36,867 nucleotides of DNA from Thermoanaerobaculia bacterium (GTDB lineage: Bacteria; Acidobacteriota; Thermoanaerobaculia; Multivoradales; JAIOJS01). Of this stretch, positions 26,921 to 36,226 are shown in pieces. How positions within the stretch are numbered: position 1 is the stretch's first letter; the number at the start of each line of letters is the position of its first letter. The notes beneath the pieces were generated by a model. The model was not told the origin of the DNA. It ran no database searches and worked only from the letters and a program-made list of their open reading frames with translations. The DNA is taken from positions 1 to 36,867 of the forward strand of contig JAUIDB010000037.1 in the NCBI GenBank assembly GCA_030429235.1, read 5' to 3'. The translations under genes were made by a program, and so were the position numbers.

Positions 26921-28282
26921 ATGACTCGACTGAACCTCCTCACCCTTATAGCCCTCTGCTGCGTCCTCGCAGCGTGCGGAGGAGACCAGGCTGCGGACCG
27001 CCAGGGGCAGAAAGCGGTCGAGCACGCTGGTCGACCAGATGTCGTCCTGATCCTGATCGACACCTTCCGTCCCGATCACCTGGGCTTCTTCGGCTACCAC
27101 CAGGACACTGCCCCGTTCCTCGATCGGCTCCTCTCCCGATCCACCGTGTTCGATCGAGCCTTCTCGACCTCCTCCTGGACTGCCCCTTCGACGAGTTCCC
27201 TGTTCACCGGGCTGTACCCCAGCCACCACGGTGTCACCGAAGGATTCCTGGCGCGCAAGCAGAGGGCCGAAGCCAGTCCCGAACCGGAGACCGTGCAGCT
27301 CAACCGACTCCCTGCGCAGGTTCCGACCCTGGCCGAACTCCTCGCCGCCCATGGCTACGCCACGATGGGAGTCGCTTCGAACATCAATATCGGAACCGAA
27401 ATCGGTTTCGACCGCGGCTTCGATCGCTTCCGCAAGCTAGCCGACCGTCCCGCGAGCCAGCTCGGTCGCCAGATCCTGGATTGGAACGGCGAGTTCCCCG
27501 ACGAGCAACCTCGCTTCTTCTACCTCCACTTCAACGATGTCCACGAACCCTACGTCCCCCGCGATCCCTGGTACCGAGAACAGGAGAACGAACTCGCTTC
27601 GTTGGTGGCTGCGTACGACAGTGAGATCTCGTACCTCGATCGAGAGATCGAGGCGCTCTACACCCAGCTCGGCTGGGATGAGAACACGCTCCTCGTCCTC
27701 GCCTCGGATCACGGCGAGGAGTTCGAAGAGCACGGACAGATCGGGCACCAGTTCACGCTCTACAACGAGTTGATGCGCGTACTCCTCGCCTTCTCGGGAG
27801 CGGACCTGGCGATTCCCGCCCAGCGCCACGACGCCGTGAACGTGTCGTTGATCGACGCCCTCCCCACGATTCTGGGCCTCCTGGAACTACCAGCTCCAGA
27901 GGGGCGTGACGGCACATCGCTGGCCCCACTGGTGCGACGGTCCCAGGCTCCACGTCTGGAACGACGCTTGCGCCGACGGGTGCTGTTCGGTCACCGATCG
28001 CACCACCGCGAGAGAATCGGCCTGCCAGAAACCCATCTATGGGCGGCCGTCAAGGGAGACTGGAAGCTCATCGAGGGTGAGAACAACCGGGAACTCTACG
28101 ACTTCGCTCAAGATCGCGAGGAACGAAACAACCGGTGGGACGACGAGCCGGAGAGAGTACGAGGCCTCAAGAGACCGCTTCGAACCCTACAGGCCAAGGG
28201 CTTTGCGGAGGGCGAGACCACTGCGGTCGAGATCGACGAGGCGACGCGCGAGCAGCTCCGGGCCCTCGGCTACGTCCAGTAG
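26921..28282 (+). CDS. Sulfatase-like alkaline-phosphatase-superfamily lipoprotein, Thr nucleophile (paralogue A)
   Basis: 453 aa. The ATG at 26921 gives a lipoprotein signal (LIALCCVLAAC, Cys19). The fold has the superfamily metal ligands: VVLILIDTFRPDHLG (Asp47), the SDHGEE pair and a later GQIGHQF His. At the position where sulfatases have C/S-x-P-S-R for formylglycine, this protein has WTAPSTSSLFTG (Thr87, and Thr instead of Arg). It is therefore unlikely to be a formylglycine sulfatase; a Thr nucleophile is used by phosphoethanolamine transferases and some phosphodiesterases of the superfamily, so phosphoryl transfer or phosphoester cleavage in the periplasm is more plausible. The tail is LRALGYVQ. 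It is followed after 90 bp by the beta-helix gene on the same strand. Confidence 0.82.
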   Translation: MTRLNLLTLIALCCVLAACGGDQAADRQGQKAVEHAGRPDVVLILIDTFRPDHLGFFGYHQDTAPFLDRLLSRSTVFDRAFSTSSWTAPSTSSLFTGLYPSHHGVTEGFLARKQRAEASPEPETVQLNRLPAQVPTLAELLAAHGYATMGVASNINIGTEIGFDRGFDRFRKLADRPASQLGRQILDWNGEFPDEQPRFFYLHFNDVHEPYVPRDPWYREQENELASLVAAYDSEISYLDREIEALYTQLGWDENTLLVLASDHGEEFEEHGQIGHQFTLYNELMRVLLAFSGADLAIPAQRHDAVNVSLIDALPTILGLLELPAPEGRDGTSLAPLVRRSQAPRLERRLRRRVLFGHRSHHRERIGLPETHLWAAVKGDWKLIEGENNRELYDFAQDREERNNRWDDEPERVRGLKRPLRTLQAKGFAEGETTAVEIDEATREQLRALGYVQ

Positions 28283-28372
28283 TCCACCGGTCGCCTATGC
28301 AATGGTCCATAGGTTCCCGCGGCGAGCTGCAGTAACCTTGGGGAGTCTCATTCTCTGACCGAGGTGCCTTTG

Positions 28373-30784
28373 ATGCGTTGTCTCGCCCCACTGTTTCTCT
28401 CCCTGATCTCTCTTCCTCTGCACGCCACCGAGGTCTTGGTACCCGTCGGTACCACGGCTGAGTTGACGGCTGCCCTGAACACAGCTCAGGACGGTCACGT
28501 CATCGAGTTGGCCGCGGGTACCTACGTCGCCCCGGCTGGAGGCTGGACCATCCTGACTCCGTCCGAGAACTTCACCGTCCGGGGCGCCGCCGGACAGACG
28601 GTGGTCCTCGACGGGCAATCGGCACGCCCACTGCTGCGGATCGACTCGGGCACGGCCGGCTCGAGCATCGTCTTCGAAAACCTGACGTTTGCCAACGGTC
28701 TGTCGACCTCCGACGGCGTGGCGGGCGGTGTGACCCTGGTGAGTTCGAACGCCACCTTCGTCGACTGCACCTTTCTCGACAACAACTCGGACGCCCCCAA
28801 CACCGGAGGAGGGGCGCTGGCGGCCTTTACCGACTCGATCGTCCACGTGGTCGACAGTCACTTCGAAGACAATGTCGCCACCAACGAAGCCGGGGCGCTG
28901 AAGGTAGGCGGCGACTCGCAGGCCTACGTCCACAACACTTCCTTCGTGGCCAATCGTACCAACGTGCCCGGCCACCGACCCTCCGCGGCCGGCGGCGCCA
29001 TCCACGTCGGCAACGCCTTCCTCGATGTCACCAACTCCCGGTTCGCCGATAACGAGGCCGGCTGCGTCGGTGGGGCGCTCTACTCGATCGGAGACTTCAA
29101 CGGTGCTCCATCTCCCACCAGCCAGGTCCGCCTCAGCCACACCACCTTCGAAGACAACCACGTCACGCCGAACGGAGTGAGCTGCAACTTCTTCGGCCTG
29201 GGAGGTGCACTCCACACCGAAGACTACTCGCAGATCGACATCTACAGTTCCCGGTTTCTGAAGAACACCTCCGAGGACGGAGGCGCGGTCAGCTCCTACC
29301 GCAGTCGGGTGGAGATCTACGACTCGACCTTCCGCGGCAACGTGGCCGACGGTAGTGGAGCTCGTGGCAACGGCGGTGCGATCGCGGTGAGTTCGCAGGA
29401 CAGCTCCGGCGACAGCGAGAATCACCCGTCGGCGGTCATCCTGGTGCGTCGCTCACTCTTCCAAGGACAGTACGACGGCAGTGGCGTCAATGGCCTCCGC
29501 GGTGGCTGTATCTGGGCTCTCGGCGATACCAATCGCACCTTCGGCTTACAGGGCGTAACGCCCATGGGTACCGCGGCCCAAAACCGCACCGCTCTCGATA
29601 TCGAAGACAGCATCTTCTTCGACTGCGATGTCGTGCGCCAAAACGGAGTCGTCGGCAGCGGAGTGGGCGGTGGCCTCTCCCTCAGCCACACCGACCTGAC
29701 CCTGGTGGGCTCCCTGGTGGCCAACTGCGACGCGACAGGAACCAACGCTGCCGGCGGGGGACTCCGTGCGATCAGCGACTCGGCCCTGACGATCGACGAC
29801 ACGACGTTCGCCAACAATCAGGCTCAACTCCGATCGGCAGCGGTCGATGCGAACGGCAGTTCGGTCGATATCGACGACAGCCGCTTCATCGACAACAGCC
29901 TGATCAGTGGTAGCACCGGCGGCGTCATGACCCTGACCGCGGGCAAGAACGTGATCGCGGGCACGATCGACCTCGACATGACGGGAACCGTGACCAACTC
30001 GACCTTTACGGGAACGCCCCAGACCATGATTCGCGACGCCGACTTCGCCTGCAGCGCCGAGGTCGAGCCGATCAACTCTGTCCGCTACAACGGCAACGAC
30101 TTTTCGACCAGCCCACCCGACGGCGCGGTGTACTCCAATAGCGTGGCCGGTGGTTCCCAGACCGCGGCTCAGCTCAACAGCCTGACCATCGTCCGCACGC
30201 TCTGTTCGAATACCAACAAGTCGACGGTAGCCAATTCAGCCCTTGGCTCGACCCCTTCCCTCGCCACCCTCGTCGCTGCCCCACCGCACCAGTTGGGTAC
30301 CGCCGCCGCGGGTGACCCGGCGCCACCAACCGAAGCTTTCCTCGGTTGGGGTTGGAGCGGCGCCTCGGCAACCCTCAACGGCAGTCCCTTGGCACCCGAG
30401 ACAGGGCTTTCTGCCGAGACGCCGGACACCTACCTGTTGGTGGCGGGAGGCGACTCGGACAGCGCCACCATCAGTTCAGCCAGCACGCCCTCCCTATCGT
30501 TCGTGGCTTCGCCGATGGCGATCGAGTCCGGCCAGTCATCGGACCTCGAATGGAGTGGACTCTCCGGAGCTTTCGTCGACCTCTCGATCGACCGCGGGGT
30601 CGAGATCACCACCCCTTCGGCCAGCGGCGCCGAAAGCGTATCCCCCGCGGCGACCACGCACTATCGGCTGCACCTGGTGACCGAAGAGGGCGGCGCCGTC
30701 GAGACGACCACGGTCTTCGTCGACGAGAATCTGGCGGAGATTTTCTCCGACGGCTTCGAATCAGGAGACACCACCGCCTGGTGA
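28373..30784 (+). CDS. Secreted beta-helix protein with PMP-type repeats, Ig-like end and DGFESGD tail
   Basis: 803 aa. The ATG at 28373 is preferred to the GTG nine bases earlier because GAGGTG then sits 6-7 bases upstream. Signal peptide MRCLAPLFLSLISLPLHA. Residues about 40-520 form a right-handed beta-helix: repeated GGALAAF, GGAIHVG, GGALYSIG, GGALHTED, GGAVSSYRS, GGAIAVSS alternate with FEDN, FVAN, FADN, FEDN, FLKN, FRGN. This GGA[ILV]/FxxN alternation is that of the chlamydial polymorphic membrane protein repeats (PF02415), which form surface passenger domains. An Ig-like region follows (about 700-780, SDLEWSGLSG ... TTHYRLHLVTE) and the end is IFSDGFESGDTTAW, a tail I recall from many exported acidobacterial proteins. 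No autotransporter barrel is present. An adhesin-like or glycan-binding surface role is inferred. Confidence 0.85.
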   Translation: MRCLAPLFLSLISLPLHATEVLVPVGTTAELTAALNTAQDGHVIELAAGTYVAPAGGWTILTPSENFTVRGAAGQTVVLDGQSARPLLRIDSGTAGSSIVFENLTFANGLSTSDGVAGGVTLVSSNATFVDCTFLDNNSDAPNTGGGALAAFTDSIVHVVDSHFEDNVATNEAGALKVGGDSQAYVHNTSFVANRTNVPGHRPSAAGGAIHVGNAFLDVTNSRFADNEAGCVGGALYSIGDFNGAPSPTSQVRLSHTTFEDNHVTPNGVSCNFFGLGGALHTEDYSQIDIYSSRFLKNTSEDGGAVSSYRSRVEIYDSTFRGNVADGSGARGNGGAIAVSSQDSSGDSENHPSAVILVRRSLFQGQYDGSGVNGLRGGCIWALGDTNRTFGLQGVTPMGTAAQNRTALDIEDSIFFDCDVVRQNGVVGSGVGGGLSLSHTDLTLVGSLVANCDATGTNAAGGGLRAISDSALTIDDTTFANNQAQLRSAAVDANGSSVDIDDSRFIDNSLISGSTGGVMTLTAGKNVIAGTIDLDMTGTVTNSTFTGTPQTMIRDADFACSAEVEPINSVRYNGNDFSTSPPDGAVYSNSVAGGSQTAAQLNSLTIVRTLCSNTNKSTVANSALGSTPSLATLVAAPPHQLGTAAAGDPAPPTEAFLGWGWSGASATLNGSPLAPETGLSAETPDTYLLVAGGDSDSATISSASTPSLSFVASPMAIESGQSSDLEWSGLSGAFVDLSIDRGVEITTPSASGAESVSPAATTHYRLHLVTEEGGAVETTTVFVDENLAEIFSDGFESGDTTAW

Positions 30785-30803
30785 CCCCGAGTCGCCCGAC
30801 GGC

Positions 30804-33518
30804 TCAGAGATACCCCAACGCCTCCAACTGCTGTCGAAGCTCGTCGTCCATCGGTCCCGTTTCGGCGTCCCTCGTGGTCCCGAGTCGATCGACCGTGATG
30901 GCGACGTTCGACTCGGGATCGTCCGGCCCGCGGCTCCAGCGACCCTCGCTCCAGGACAGCTGGAGGCCGTCGCCGGCATCCCCGAGGTCCCGGAAATCAA
31001 ACCGATGGGAGAAGGTCGAGACCTCTCCTCCGACGGTCAGATCACCCTCGACCACCAGGTCGGATCCGAACTGCTTCTCGAGAACCAGCGTCAACTGGTC
31101 GCCGGGCGCCAAGTCGAAGCGAGCCACCCCGGTCTCCACCCAACGCACGCAGTCACAACCCTGATCGATCGACTTGGTCGCCACCGGGCGTACGGCTTCC
31201 CCCGTCAGGAGCCCCTCGAACCGTCCCGTCGAGCCGTTGCGAAACTCGATCCGAACTCCTTGCGCTTCCCGCCGCCAGTACTCGGCCAGAGCCGAGAGTG
31301 CGGTTGCGCACCGCTCCTCTTGGCCGGGAGAGATGCGCTCGGACTCGCCAGGATCCTGGACGAGATCGAAGCACCCGGACAGTGAACGGTTCGGACCCGT
31401 GGCGACCACCGCCCACGCGTTGTTGTCCAACATCGCCTTGTATTCGGGGTGGCGGAGCGACAGCCCGCGGTTGGCGGCCGCACTGTAGCTCCAAGCCGGT
31501 AGGTCCGATTGGCCGGCCTCTCTCAGTCCCACTCCGTGCAGTGGTTCGGAAGACGCGACGCCGGCCGCAGCCAGCAGGGTGGGAGCGATGTCGATCGAGC
31601 GCACCTGCCGAGCGTCGCGCTGCCCGGCGCGATAACCGTCGGGCCAGGCGACGATCAGAGGGATTCGAAGCACTTCGTCGAAGAGGTCGACGTGGCCAAA
31701 CCGACCTCCTTCACCCAGGGATTCGCCATGGTCCGAGGTCAGGACGACAACCGTTCTCTCGTCGAGCCCGGCGGATTCCAGGCCCCCGAGCAGCCGGCCC
31801 AGGTGCTCGTCGACTCGAGCCAGACCGCTGTCGTAGAGGGCTCCGAGCAGGCGACGCTCCGCCGCTCCCAAGGGACTCTTCGATCCCCCGTCGCGCCATT
31901 CGAAGCGCACCTGCTGCCGCAACGCGTCCTCGGCCCGATTGGCCGGCGAAGACGCAGCGGCCACCGCTGTCGGCGGCTCCAGCTTCGGATACAGCCGCTC
32001 GAAATGAGGGCTCCGCGCTCGATAGGGATCGTGCGCGGCGTAGGTGTGCAGGAAGAGGAAGGTCGGCCGAGGCGCTTCCGACAGCCGCCGCAACGCCCGA
32101 TCGACCCCCTCGGGGAGTTCGGGGTCGTCCCGGGAGCGGTCGTTCCAATATCGGTATGACGAGAAACCACGGTCGAACCCATAGTCGGGATGGAGGTAAG
32201 CGCCACCGGTGATCGCGACAGTGTCGTAGCCAGCTCCCCGCAGTCGCTCGGCCAGGGTCGAGAACGGCCACTGGCGCCCCGTCGCCGCCCCCACATCGTG
32301 GTTGACCCCGTGCTGCAGGGCATCGAGCCCGCTCAGCATCGACACGTGGGAGGGCAGGGTCCAGGGTGCGGTGGCCACAGCCTGCTCGAAGACCAGAGCT
32401 CGGCGACGAGCCCAGCGGCCGATCGCAGGCGTCGTAGCCTTCTGATACCCGTAGAGACCCATCCGATCCGCCCGCACCGTGTCGAGCGATACCAGAAGGA
32501 GATGAGGTTGCGCACCTTCCCGCCGCGCCCGTGTCCCGCGCAGCACCGTTGGATCTCCCCAGTACGCAACGCCGGCGAGCCCTTCGGACTCAGTCTCCAG
32601 GCGGATGCGACTGACGCCGTCGGACCGCGGAAGTTCGACTCGTCCCAGGTGCCAGCGATTGCGATCGGCCGGCGACCGGCCGAGTCGTTCCTCCCAGAGG
32701 ACGGCGTCATCGACCCGCACCCGGAACACCGCCTGTCCGTGATAGCTGCGATCGAGCCCGTAGCCGAAGACCAGCGTGTCGCCGGCTCGAAGCGCGGCTC
32801 GGCGCCCAATCGACTCGCGCGTCGATACCACGAAGGCCGGCTGGACCTCGTGATCGAGTTCGACTCGGAGTCCACGATCTGCGACCGATGAGATCGCTGC
32901 GGCGTCCGGACGCTCGCTCCACAACCGCAGCGATTCGAGTCGAAGGCTCTCCTGACGCGGCCGAAGGACGATTTCGATCTCGGCGATCTGACCCGACCAG
33001 TCCGAGCGCTCGGCCACGGCAAAACGAACCAGGTCTCCCTCGGCCGAACGCCGCCGCGTTCCCCGAACACCGGGTCCGGACGACCACTCTTCACCCGCCC
33101 GGCGAAACCTCAAGATCGGGATCGCCCCGCGGCCCGCCGCGAATCGGGCTTCGATCTCCACCACGCGAGCGGCCAGCAGGTCCACCTCCCGTCGAAGGCG
33201 GACCGGGCCGTCGACCACCACGGTATCGGCTTCGAGTCGCCAATCCCGCCCCCCTTGGGGGTCCGGCTCGAGTTCCTCGACCTGCCAGGCTTCGATCTCC
33301 TGGGCGACCGGCCACTCATCGACCGCGATCGAGACGAAGAGCTGCTTGTCCCCTCGACGCAGGACGGTGGAGTCATCGAGCCAGTAGGCGACATCCGAAC
33401 GGAACTCGAGTTCGGTCCCTCCTGGAGTGCAGGCGGACCAAAGCGCCAGGGCGAGAACCGACGCGGCGCCGACGCGTCGGAACTCCCTCGATCGGCTTCT
33501 CGATCTCGGTGCTCGCAC
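30804..33518 (-). CDS. Sulfatase-like alkaline-phosphatase-superfamily protein with large N-terminal beta region, Thr nucleophile (paralogue B)
   Basis: 904 aa. The GTG at 33518 shares its G with the TAG stop of the upstream paralogue (TAGTG), so it is translationally coupled; a longer frame exists upstream but would run into that gene. The signal segment VLALALWSAC (Cys30) resembles a lipobox with an unusual Trp at -3. Residues about 35-330 are beta-rich, with a jelly-roll-like stretch (SYHGQAVFRVRVDDAVLWEE), possibly glycan binding. The catalytic part begins LLLVSLDTVRADRMG (Asp346) and has APWTLPSHVSMLSG with Thr387 at the nucleophile position, then SDHGESLGEGG and RFGHVDLFDEV. After about residue 715 comes a further beta-rich part. 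The tail is LEALGYL. The substrate is unknown; phosphoester chemistry is more likely than sulfate ester. Confidence 0.8.
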   Translation of the reverse strand: MRAPRSRSRSREFRRVGAASVLALALWSACTPGGTELEFRSDVAYWLDDSTVLRRGDKQLFVSIAVDEWPVAQEIEAWQVEELEPDPQGGRDWRLEADTVVVDGPVRLRREVDLLAARVVEIEARFAAGRGAIPILRFRRAGEEWSSGPGVRGTRRRSAEGDLVRFAVAERSDWSGQIAEIEIVLRPRQESLRLESLRLWSERPDAAAISSVADRGLRVELDHEVQPAFVVSTRESIGRRAALRAGDTLVFGYGLDRSYHGQAVFRVRVDDAVLWEERLGRSPADRNRWHLGRVELPRSDGVSRIRLETESEGLAGVAYWGDPTVLRGTRARREGAQPHLLLVSLDTVRADRMGLYGYQKATTPAIGRWARRRALVFEQAVATAPWTLPSHVSMLSGLDALQHGVNHDVGAATGRQWPFSTLAERLRGAGYDTVAITGGAYLHPDYGFDRGFSSYRYWNDRSRDDPELPEGVDRALRRLSEAPRPTFLFLHTYAAHDPYRARSPHFERLYPKLEPPTAVAAASSPANRAEDALRQQVRFEWRDGGSKSPLGAAERRLLGALYDSGLARVDEHLGRLLGGLESAGLDERTVVVLTSDHGESLGEGGRFGHVDLFDEVLRIPLIVAWPDGYRAGQRDARQVRSIDIAPTLLAAAGVASSEPLHGVGLREAGQSDLPAWSYSAAANRGLSLRHPEYKAMLDNNAWAVVATGPNRSLSGCFDLVQDPGESERISPGQEERCATALSALAEYWRREAQGVRIEFRNGSTGRFEGLLTGEAVRPVATKSIDQGCDCVRWVETGVARFDLAPGDQLTLVLEKQFGSDLVVEGDLTVGGEVSTFSHRFDFRDLGDAGDGLQLSWSEGRWSRGPDDPESNVAITVDRLGTTRDAETGPMDDELRQQLEALGYL

Positions 33519-34867
33519 TACAGGTACCCCAGGCTGCGCAGGCGCTCCGTCTGTTCGGCATCGAGCTCGGGGGTCGGTTGGCTCGAGGCGCCGACGTCGG
33601 GCTGAGTCCGACGCCACTCGGCCAGGGCCCGAGCCAATCGGCGCACCTCACTCTTGTTGGCCGCCGCGATGTCGACCTGCTCCTCGGGATCGGCGACCAG
33701 ATCGTAGAGCCGCCGGCCCTTCCCGACGCTCTGGATGAGCTTGTAGCGCCGGGTCCGCACACTGTAGAGCAAGCCTCCGTACTGTGAGAACACGGCTCGG
33801 AACTCCGCCGCTGGGATCGCTGGGTCCAGTAGGTTCCTCCCCCGCATGAAGGCAGGAACCGGCTCCCCGGCCACACCCAGCAAAGTCGGAGCAAGGTCGA
33901 GGGTCGAGACCATCCGATCGTCGGTCCCAGGGGTTACCCCCGGTCCCGACAGAATCAGAGGAACGTGGAGTAGTTCGTCGAAGAGGCTCCCAGGATGGAG
34001 CACTCGGCCATGTTCACCAAATTCCTCGCCGTGGTCTGAAGTGATCAACACGATGGCGTCGTCGAGAAAGCCGATCTCCGAGAGCTCGTCGAAGAGCCGC
34101 TTCAATTCGTCGTCAAAGTAGCGGATCCCGCGATCGTAGGCCGCGACGATCGCCGCGAGATCGTCCGGGGCCAGCCGGCGACGAACGTCACCTCGCAAAG
34201 CCCGCAGGTTGCGGCTGGTAGGCCGAAAGTCCGATTCGAAGGTACCGAACAGCTGACCGTACTCCTTTGGCGTCTTGTATGGCGAGTGCACCTCGTAGCT
34301 GTGCAAGAAGGCGAACACCGGCTGTCCGGTGGCCCGCGCCCTCTGGATCTCGTGCACCAAGAGCCGACGCTGGCGGCGAATGCCCTTGCGGGTCGCGAAG
34401 CGAGAGAAACCTTGGGACAGTCCGAACTCCTCGCTCAGGAAACCACCGCCGGTCACCGCCAGGGTCGCATACCCCGAACGTGCCAGGATCTCCGGAAGGA
34501 GATCGAGTTCCGGGGGTACGACCGAGCTGGCTTCCGGGTCCGACTCCGTCACCATGCCCACTCGGTGGCTCTCCTGGGCCAACGACGAAAAGAGGGTGGT
34601 GTGAGATGGCGGCGTGCCGTGGGTATTGACGAAGGCGTGGCTGAAACGGCGCCCCTCCGCGGCCAGTTGATCGAGAAAGGGCGAAGTCTCTCGTTCGTAG
34701 CCCCAAGCCCCCAGGTGATCGGCGCGGAGGGTATCGATCGACACCAGCAGGATATGAGGCCTCGCCGGCGATTCGCCCCGCGTCGGTGGCACTCCGGAAT
34801 CCGCCCCGCAGCCGAGCAGTCCGGCGGCGAGCACGACCACCGAGACCGTGCGCAACCCAACGATCAT
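33518..34867 (-). CDS. Sulfatase-like alkaline-phosphatase-superfamily lipoprotein, Thr nucleophile (paralogue C)
   Basis: 449 aa. The ATG at 34867 directly abuts the TAG of the upstream paralogue (TAGATG). Lipoprotein signal with VVVLAAGLLGC (Cys20). Superfamily motifs: ILLVSIDTLRADHLGAWGYE (first Asp), FVNTHGTPPSHTTLFSSL with Thr85 where sulfatases have formylglycine, LITSDHGEEFGEHG and the following LHPGSLFDELLHVPLIL. It is clearly a tandem duplicate of the upstream gene: long identical runs include the first motif, the Thr segment, QESHRVG and the region AAYDRGIRY. The tail is LRSLGYL. An envelope phosphoesterase or phosphotransferase role is inferred from the missing formylglycine residue. 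Confidence 0.83.
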   Translation of the reverse strand: MIVGLRTVSVVVLAAGLLGCGADSGVPPTRGESPARPHILLVSIDTLRADHLGAWGYERETSPFLDQLAAEGRRFSHAFVNTHGTPPSHTTLFSSLAQESHRVGMVTESDPEASSVVPPELDLLPEILARSGYATLAVTGGGFLSEEFGLSQGFSRFATRKGIRRQRRLLVHEIQRARATGQPVFAFLHSYEVHSPYKTPKEYGQLFGTFESDFRPTSRNLRALRGDVRRRLAPDDLAAIVAAYDRGIRYFDDELKRLFDELSEIGFLDDAIVLITSDHGEEFGEHGRVLHPGSLFDELLHVPLILSGPGVTPGTDDRMVSTLDLAPTLLGVAGEPVPAFMRGRNLLDPAIPAAEFRAVFSQYGGLLYSVRTRRYKLIQSVGKGRRLYDLVADPEEQVDIAAANKSEVRRLARALAEWRRTQPDVGASSQPTPELDAEQTERLRSLGYL

Positions 34868-36226
34868 CTACAGGTACCCCAGGGTCCTCAGCTGCTGCTC
34901 TTCCTCGGCACTCAACTCGGGTCCGTCCTGCAGCATCTCGGCGACCGGGGGCTGCGCCGCTCGCCACTCCCTGAGTTGGCGTCGCAGCTGGCGGACGACC
35001 TCCGGATGGTCTCGACTCACATCACGTCGTTCCTTCGGATCGGCGACCAGATCGAAAAGCGCCAGGCGACCGTCGGCGGTCCTCTCCATGAGCTTCCAAC
35101 GGGTGGTGCGGACCGCGTACAGGGAGGTACCGAATTGAGAAACTACAAACTCTGGAGCTGGCACGTCCGAGGCCAGCAGATCGCGGCCCTGCATCTGCTC
35201 CGGCACCGGGATACCGACGAGTTCCAGGAGGGTCGGCGCCACGTCGATCGAAGTGACCAGGGCCTCCTCGACCGCCGGCTCGACCTCCGGTGCCACCAGG
35301 ATCAAGGGGACGTGGAGGAGTTCGTCGAACAGCGACGCCGGATGGAGGAAACGACCGCGTTCCCGAAACTCCTCTCCGTGGTCCGAAGTGATCAGCAGGA
35401 TCGCGTCGTCGAGAAACCCGAGCGCCTCCAACTCGCCGAGGAAGCGGCCCAGGACGTCGTCGGTGTATCGAATCCCCCGGTCGTAGGCCGCGACGATGGC
35501 ACCGACCTCCTCCTCGGTCATGGCTGTGATCTCTTTCCGGGTCAGCGCTCGTAGATTCTCGCTGGTGGGTTCGAACTCGCTGGGCCAGGCACCAAACAGA
35601 TCTTGATACTCCGGCGGGCTGACGTAGGGAGAATGCACTTCGTAGGTGTGGAGGAAGGCAAACACAGGACGCGAATCCTCGGTGGGAGACGCCAGGCGAT
35701 CGAACAGGGTCTCCGTCTGGGCGGCGATCCCCTTGCGCAGATCGAACTCCTCGAAGCCCTGATCCAGTCCGAACTTGCGCCCCATATAGGCTCCGCCCGT
35801 CACCCCGACCGTACGGTACCCGGCGGCGGCGAAGATCTCGGGGAGTAGTTCCAGGGCCCCGGGAGCGATGTAGCTGGGAGCGGTCCCAGTCTCTGCCGAA
35901 ATCCCCACGCGGTGGCTCTCTTGCGACAGCGACGCAAACAGGCTCGTGTGGGACTGCGGCGTGCCGTGGGTATTGACGAAGGCTCGTGCGAACCGCAAGC
36001 CGCGGCCGGCGATGCGATCCAACGCCGGAGAGGTGTCCCTCTCGTAGCCCCAGGCTCCGAGGTGATCAGCCCGCAGGGTATCGATCGAGACCAGCAACAC
36101 ATTGCGTGGCGCCGTCTCGGTGGTCCCGGACTCAGGGCTCTCTCCGCACCCCGCGCAGAGCCCAGCGCAAGCGAGCAGGGAAAGCAGCAGCCGGCGCCAG
36201 CGGGCCGTAGAACGAGATCGCGACAT
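34868..36226 (-). CDS. Sulfatase-like alkaline-phosphatase-superfamily lipoprotein, Thr nucleophile (paralogue D)
   Basis: 452 aa. ATG 36226, 33 bp after the stop of the methyltransferase gene on the same strand. Lipoprotein signal ending LCAGC (Cys27). Motifs: VLLVSIDTLRADHLGAWGYE, FVNTHGTPQSHTSLFASL with Thr89 at the nucleophile position (the usual Pro of x-P-S is Gln here: T-P-Q-S-H), LITSDHGEEFRERG, and FLHPASLFDELLHVPLIL. The stop abuts the start of paralogue C, and the two share most of their length. The tail is LRTLGYL. As in the others, formylglycine chemistry is excluded by the missing Cys/Ser. It is the first of three paralogues in this operon, so its promoter or that of the methyltransferase drives the set. 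Confidence 0.83.
   Translation of the reverse strand: MSRSRSTARWRRLLLSLLACAGLCAGCGESPESGTTETAPRNVLLVSIDTLRADHLGAWGYERDTSPALDRIAGRGLRFARAFVNTHGTPQSHTSLFASLSQESHRVGISAETGTAPSYIAPGALELLPEIFAAAGYRTVGVTGGAYMGRKFGLDQGFEEFDLRKGIAAQTETLFDRLASPTEDSRPVFAFLHTYEVHSPYVSPPEYQDLFGAWPSEFEPTSENLRALTRKEITAMTEEEVGAIVAAYDRGIRYTDDVLGRFLGELEALGFLDDAILLITSDHGEEFRERGRFLHPASLFDELLHVPLILVAPEVEPAVEEALVTSIDVAPTLLELVGIPVPEQMQGRDLLASDVPAPEFVVSQFGTSLYAVRTTRWKLMERTADGRLALFDLVADPKERRDVSRDHPEVVRQLRRQLREWRAAQPPVAEMLQDGPELSAEEEQQLRTLGYL

Follow-up and report, generated by a model that had tools for sequence, protein, structure and literature searches.

The four sulfatase-like proteins encoded in the window (the whole 36,867-nucleotide stretch of DNA analyzed here) are members of a large, already noticed class of PF00884 proteins that have threonine where sulfatases have cysteine or serine; the mis-naming of this class is published, and its biochemistry was not found in the literature searched. 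On balance, we favor the view that the four are exported, metal-dependent phosphodiesterases or phosphotransferases that become phosphorylated on this threonine and work on an envelope substrate. What is new is the definition of the Thr class by a measured set of features, namely D-T, T-x-P-[SA], D-H-G-E, a histidine 13 positions after the aspartate of D-H-G-E (His+13), and a C-terminal L-x-x-L-G-Y motif.

The window is one entire contig (C12) of a genome of 4.85 Mb in 92 contigs. A sequence-only reading had placed four sulfatase-like open reading frames in it, and all four were found at the coordinates that it gave, each being a real PF00884 protein that scored 140 to 156 bits against a cut-off of 25. 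SUL1 (26921..28282, plus strand) is a Thr-type lipoprotein of 453 amino acids (PF00884, 140 bits; lipobox VLAAC), with orthologues of 52 to 56% identity in three other genomes. SUL2 (30804..33518, minus strand) has 904 amino acids and a GTG start, an alternative GTG start at 33617 being possible. Its N-terminal region of ~330 residues had no Pfam match and was modeled with low confidence; an extra region (residues ~750 to 890) precedes its LGY motif, and a SUL2 orthologue is present in the same genus. SUL3 (33518..34867, minus strand; 449 amino acids; lipobox LLGC) and SUL4 (34868..36226, minus strand; 452 amino acids; lipobox-like LLAC) are tandem duplicates with 57% identity. Judged by sequence, the lipoboxes of SUL1 and SUL3 are clear, that of SUL4 is plausible, and that of SUL2 is ambiguous; all four proteins are predicted to be exported, SUL1, SUL3, and SUL4 with clear or plausible lipoprotein signals. 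Upstream of SUL4 and in the same direction, a class I methyltransferase gene (PF08241; 36260..36865, minus strand) runs off the contig end. The order on the minus strand is methyltransferase, SUL4, SUL3, SUL2: 33 bases separate the first two genes, SUL4 and SUL3 abut (0 bases), and the SUL3 stop codon (TAG) shares 1 base with the GTG start of SUL2, a layout that predicts an operon.

The sequence-only reading had also claimed that threonine occupies the position of the sulfatase Cys/Ser and that the arginine of C/S-x-P-S-R is lost, and both claims were borne out. The predicted catalytic threonines are Thr87 of SUL1 (WTAPST; codon at 27179..27181, plus strand), Thr387 of SUL2 (WTLPSH; 32358..32360, minus strand), Thr85 of SUL3 (GTPPSH; 34613..34615, minus strand), and Thr89 of SUL4 (GTPQSH; 35960..35962, minus strand), the arginine being replaced by threonine in SUL1 and by histidine in SUL2 to SUL4. 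SUL3 and SUL4 share the variant T-P-[PQ]-S-H, and the C/S-x-P-x-R nucleophile signature is absent from all four. The further claim of retained metal ligands is true of the alkaline phosphatase superfamily and fails for the sulfatase set: the sulfatase DD pair is D-T (ID-T-LR), with threonine in place of the second aspartate, and DNG is DHG, with histidine in place of asparagine, so that all four proteins have D-T and D-H where S1 sulfatases have their Asp-Asp and Asp-Asn calcium ligands. The ligands are therefore those of the alkaline phosphatase/phosphoethanolamine transferase set. Each protein carries the Thr-type set of DT, TxP[SAN], H-x4-H, DHGE, His+13, and a C-terminal LxxLGY. The suspicion that "sulfatase" is a misnomer was justified: with D-T, Thr, His/Thr, and D-H in place of the sulfatase residues, these are not formylglycine sulfatases. 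At the level of sequence, the residue set, the family, and the fold are established, and the assignment of threonine as the nucleophile is strongly supported.

The sequence-only reading had recognized four paralogues, a count that falls short, since the source genome holds 37 PF00884 matches. A motif table of these 37 showed all of them to be of the Thr type except L028, a Ser variant, and L041, which matches only in part and lacks the N-terminal half. None was of the Cys type, and none had C/S-x-P-x-R. Within this genome, SUL1 to SUL4 thus do not stand out from a family of about 36 copies. L028 (G000:C33:136053-136991) has serine at the nucleophile position, E-S for D-T, GENGE for SDHGE, and no LGY motif, and is possibly an inactive or altered paralogue. 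A profile built from 26 Thr-type sequences (A1) matched 152 of the 199 genomes of the phylum at an E value of 1e-40 or better, and Thr-type relatives also came from Myxococcota, Planctomycetota, and others. One genome of the same order (G032) was the opposite of the source genome, with 29 Cys-type proteins in a sample of 30 PF00884 matches that is biased in that it comprised the best-scoring ones. Another Thr-type homologue (L053) lies on a metagenome-assembled contig labeled Klebsiella pneumoniae, a host in which this family is surprising, and that record is possibly mislabeled or contaminated.

We compared 214 distinct sequences with letters in the key columns, 171 of them Thr type and 41 Cys type, the latter mostly from one genome and so not independent of one another. 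Among the 171 Thr-type sequences, D-T was found in 159, glutamate three positions after the D-H aspartate in 157, and the histidine at +13 in 160; the Hb column was histidine in all 165 sequences with a letter there, and D-H was present in 163 of 163. The 41 Cys-type sequences had D-D or D-Q throughout, the arginine in 39, and D-N in 33; their +13 position was not conserved. The entire active site therefore shifts jointly between the two types, far from what chance would give. The histidine four positions after the nucleophile occurred in only 102 of the 171 Thr-type sequences; the histidine that replaces the sulfatase arginine is thus probably dispensable.

The C terminus separates the types as well. 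L-x-x-L-G-Y was present in 154 of the 159 Thr-type proteins with complete tails versus 1 of 37 Cys-type proteins. In the Thr type, it lies about 100 to 260 residues past the domain. Of 155 occurrences, 105 lie within 3 residues of the stop and 39 have more than 20 residues beyond them. In the window, the motif is LRALGY in SUL1 (28256..28273, plus strand; the protein ends LRALGYVQ), LEALGYL in SUL2 (30807..30827, minus strand), LRSLGYL in SUL3 (33521..33541, minus strand), and LRTLGYL in SUL4 (34871..34891, minus strand). The consensus L-[RK]-[AS]-L-G-Y-[LVI] is written with 34 codon combinations, which argues for selection on the protein. In SUL4, the motif stands directly ahead of the SUL3 start, and in SUL3 the stop codon behind it overlaps the SUL2 start. 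A disguised ribosome-binding site for the next gene was considered and rejected on the variety of codons and on the 39 proteins that continue well beyond the motif. In a model of SUL2, the final (LGY) helix has a pLDDT of about 90 and follows low-confidence residues, which suggests that it may pack back onto the catalytic domain; whether it serves as a docking or gating element is a guess.

That the active site matches the phosphoethanolamine transferases was confirmed by residue alignment with Escherichia coli EptA. In hhalign, SUL4 and EptA paired at D49/E244, T89/T282, H193/H380, H198/H385, D282/D455, H283/H456, and H295/H468. The Thr-class profile aligned with EptA/B/C at an E value of 2.8e-17 over 272 columns, with all catalytic residues in register. 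On this alignment and a direct check of the sequences, the class has a threonine nucleophile, E/D, D, and H zinc ligands, and two further histidines, as EptA and MCR do. We take Thr282 of EptA, and not the adjacent Thr280, to be the equivalent of MCR-1 Thr285, on the basis of an ungapped alignment and the MCR-1 sequence. In MCR-1, Thr285 is phosphorylated and T285A abolishes function; Glu246, Asp465, and His466 are the Zn1 ligands, and His395 and His478 are the second-site histidines (PMC5031297). Filing the four proteins as EptA-type enzymes was rejected: the best scores against the NCBIfam phosphoethanolamine transferase models were about 34 to 40 bits, where the cut-offs are about 400 to 1,250, and the membrane domain is missing, only 36 to 41 residues lying ahead of the domain in SUL1, SUL3, and SUL4.

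The body of the protein points elsewhere. Against Cys-type sulfatases, hhalign gave an E value of 7.5e-40 on 375 columns that take in the C-terminal subdomain, and because the class as a whole resembles Cys-type sulfatases more than phosphoethanolamine transferases, the body is no guide to the type of substrate. The AlphaFold model of SUL4 (mean pLDDT, 88.5; pTM, 0.85) had S1 sulfatases and phosphonate monoester hydrolases (PMHs) as its best structural matches, with Z scores of 36 to 42, and shares the S1 fold with its C-terminal subdomain over about 365 residues; a viral-protein structural library gave nothing useful. In the model, Thr89 is the first residue of helix 89-98. Asp49 lies just past strand 42-48 and Asp282/His283 just past strand 275-280, so that, judged by secondary-structure position, the predicted nucleophile and ligands sit as the superfamily requires. 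In a tree of 76 domains, the Cys-type proteins grouped with E. coli YidJ, AslA, and YdeN (support, 98), EptA/B/C stood apart, and the Thr type branched separately from both, moderately supported (81% SH-aLRT) and with a weak, very long YejM branch inside it. The Thr class thus has a body like that of sulfatases and PMHs and a site like that of EptA.

For the metal, the chemistry, the substrate, and the choice between hydrolysis and transfer, we infer the following scheme, in SUL4 numbering. Asp49, Asp282, and His283 would hold one buried divalent metal ion, probably zinc, which would activate Thr89; this residue would attack a phosphodiester (or phosphonate) at phosphorus and become phosphorylated. 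The invariant His198 and the near-invariant His295 would bind a second metal or act in acid/base catalysis and pass the phosphoryl-X group on, either to water, as in a phosphodiesterase, or to the hydroxyl of a sugar or lipid, as in a transferase. The most likely substrate would be an envelope glycan or lipid that carries phosphate, with different acceptors for the many paralogues. Scores above the PF01663 cut-off in all four proteins also speak for this scheme. Phosphodiester chemistry together with an envelope substrate strikes us as likely, if by no great measure. A bolder scheme, which we regard as doubtful, would make the LxxLGY class a separate sulfatase-fold family that performs Thr-phosphoryl transfer between envelope polymers, with the LGY helix as a gate or docking element and tens of paralogues per genome providing combinatorial phospho-decoration in Acidobacteriota, Myxococcota, and Planctomycetota.

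Might the proteins instead be NPP-like two-zinc phosphodiesterases/pyrophosphatases that simply hydrolyze nucleotide or lipid phosphodiesters? All four do score above the cut-off for PF01663 (type I phosphodiesterase/NPP), with 24 to 60 bits against 23 and an E value of 4e-16 for SUL1, and T-x-P-S-H resembles the T-F-P-N-H of NPPs. However, PF00884 always scores far higher, family members vary at the histidine of TxPSH, and H-x4-H with His+13 would fit EptA better than the second metal site of NPPs, D-x3-H with a distant histidine; we rate this reading as unlikely. The proteins could also be noncatalytic sensors or scaffolds of the kind represented by E. coli YejM/LapC in lipopolysaccharide synthesis, since sulfatase-fold proteins that have lost catalysis exist and YejM gives a weak score with the family profile. 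The near invariance of the metal ligands and the threonine over 171 sequences, across phyla and dozens of paralogues, argues for catalysis and makes such a role quite improbable.

There is very little chance, in our estimation, that these are true sulfatases that dispense with formylglycine and use the threonine directly or after modification, even though S1 sulfatases are the closest matches in whole sequence and fold and the genome has four FGE-domain matches in three proteins. Formation of formylglycine from threonine has never been shown, and oxidation would yield a ketone (PMC5066984); moreover, other residues stand in place of the arginine that holds formylglycine and of the second aspartate and the asparagine of the sulfatase site. 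Formylglycine made from Cys or Ser elsewhere in the genome was discarded as an explanation, there being no C/S-x-P-x-R protein of PF00884 despite the FGE-domain matches.

Phosphoryl chemistry at the cell surface, the reading that we prefer, is also consistent with the gene neighborhoods. Neighbors of the SUL genes include a GT2 glycosyltransferase and the methyltransferase. Between SUL1 and SUL2 lies a gene for a secreted Chlamydia-PMP-repeat (beta-helix-like) protein (28364..30784, plus strand; PF02415 match). The search covered one further genome of the genus (G001), in which SUL1, SUL2, one SUL3/4 protein, the PMP-repeat protein, and the methyltransferase are all together; SUL1 adjoins the PMP-repeat protein in G029, and SUL4-like and SUL1 genes are adjacent in G033, with a glycosyltransferase and a sugar-phosphate transferase close by. 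The context favors a role in cell-surface glycan work, with the limit that the glycan genes vary among genomes and much of the neighborhood is unconserved. From export, the partial lipoprotein signature, and the neighboring genes, SUL1 to SUL4 probably act on envelope glycans or lipids. In the G001 cluster, MBOAT and AlgX-like O-acetylation genes (L110:9138-11935) lie in between the other members; they are absent at that place in the window.

The PMP-repeat protein ends in a tail, IFSDGFESGDTTAW, of the pattern [IL]F[AS]DGFE[ST]GDT-x-AW (30719-30784; also at L237 to L256 and L110), which had no Pfam or NCBIfam match. The pattern has 93 matches in the source genome. Of 20 places fetched, 19 yielded a total of 20 tails, every one within 18 residues of the protein end, and such tails occur in 30 of 40 related genomes, often dozens of times. 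None of the papers searched mentions DGFESG. The tail has the look of a protein-sorting tag that has not been described before and that lacks a membrane helix.

The sequence-only reading had presented the set as its best candidate for undescribed enzymology, but as a class it had already been noticed. In 2016, SulfAtlas reported threonine in 30 of the 59 seed sequences of PF00884, stated that these proteins cannot be called sulfatases and that none was characterized, and noted that PF00884 propagates false sulfatase annotations (PMC5066984). Many database "sulfatases" are used to claim microbial recycling of sulfated polysaccharides, and a study of Acidobacteriota took unspecified sulfatases in this way (PMC8528874). 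If the Thr class does handle phosphate, sulfatase counts are wrong for every Thr-dominated genome, the source genome included. The residue set with the LxxLGY tail provides a simple filter for the class. A search of papers available without subscription found no characterized Thr-type member, and we know of none that has been assayed; a soluble lipoprotein such as SUL4 would lend itself readily to assays bearing on one of the large Pfam families.

Several known systems bear comparison with the Thr class. The SulfAtlas Thr members share its Pfam family and the threonine in place of Cys/Ser, in a paper that gives no definition, site set, or function (PMC5066984). EptA, EptB, EptC, and MCR-1 share all seven active-site residues with it, in matching order and, for EptA, at near-identical spacing, as well as the segment [DE]T-x-R-x-[DE] ... 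GY-x-R-x-T-x-P-x-L; unlike them, the class lacks the N-terminal membrane domain in SUL1 to SUL4, has a sulfatase-type C-terminal subdomain, and forms a separate tree branch. The formylglycine S1 sulfatases (SpAS1/SpAS2, choline sulfatase, and S1_25) share the whole fold, with Z scores of up to 41.6, but have a Cys/Ser nucleophile where the Thr class has threonine, and they differ in the arginine, the second aspartate, the asparagine, and other site residues and in the C-terminal LxxLGY, which is a feature of the Thr class. In the alignment, YidJ has lysine in place of His+13, and PMH too has lysine there. PMH (2vqr and 2w8s) shares the fold, with Z scores of about 37, and provides a precedent for phosphodiester cleavage within the sulfatase branch, although it uses formylglycine where the Thr class has threonine.
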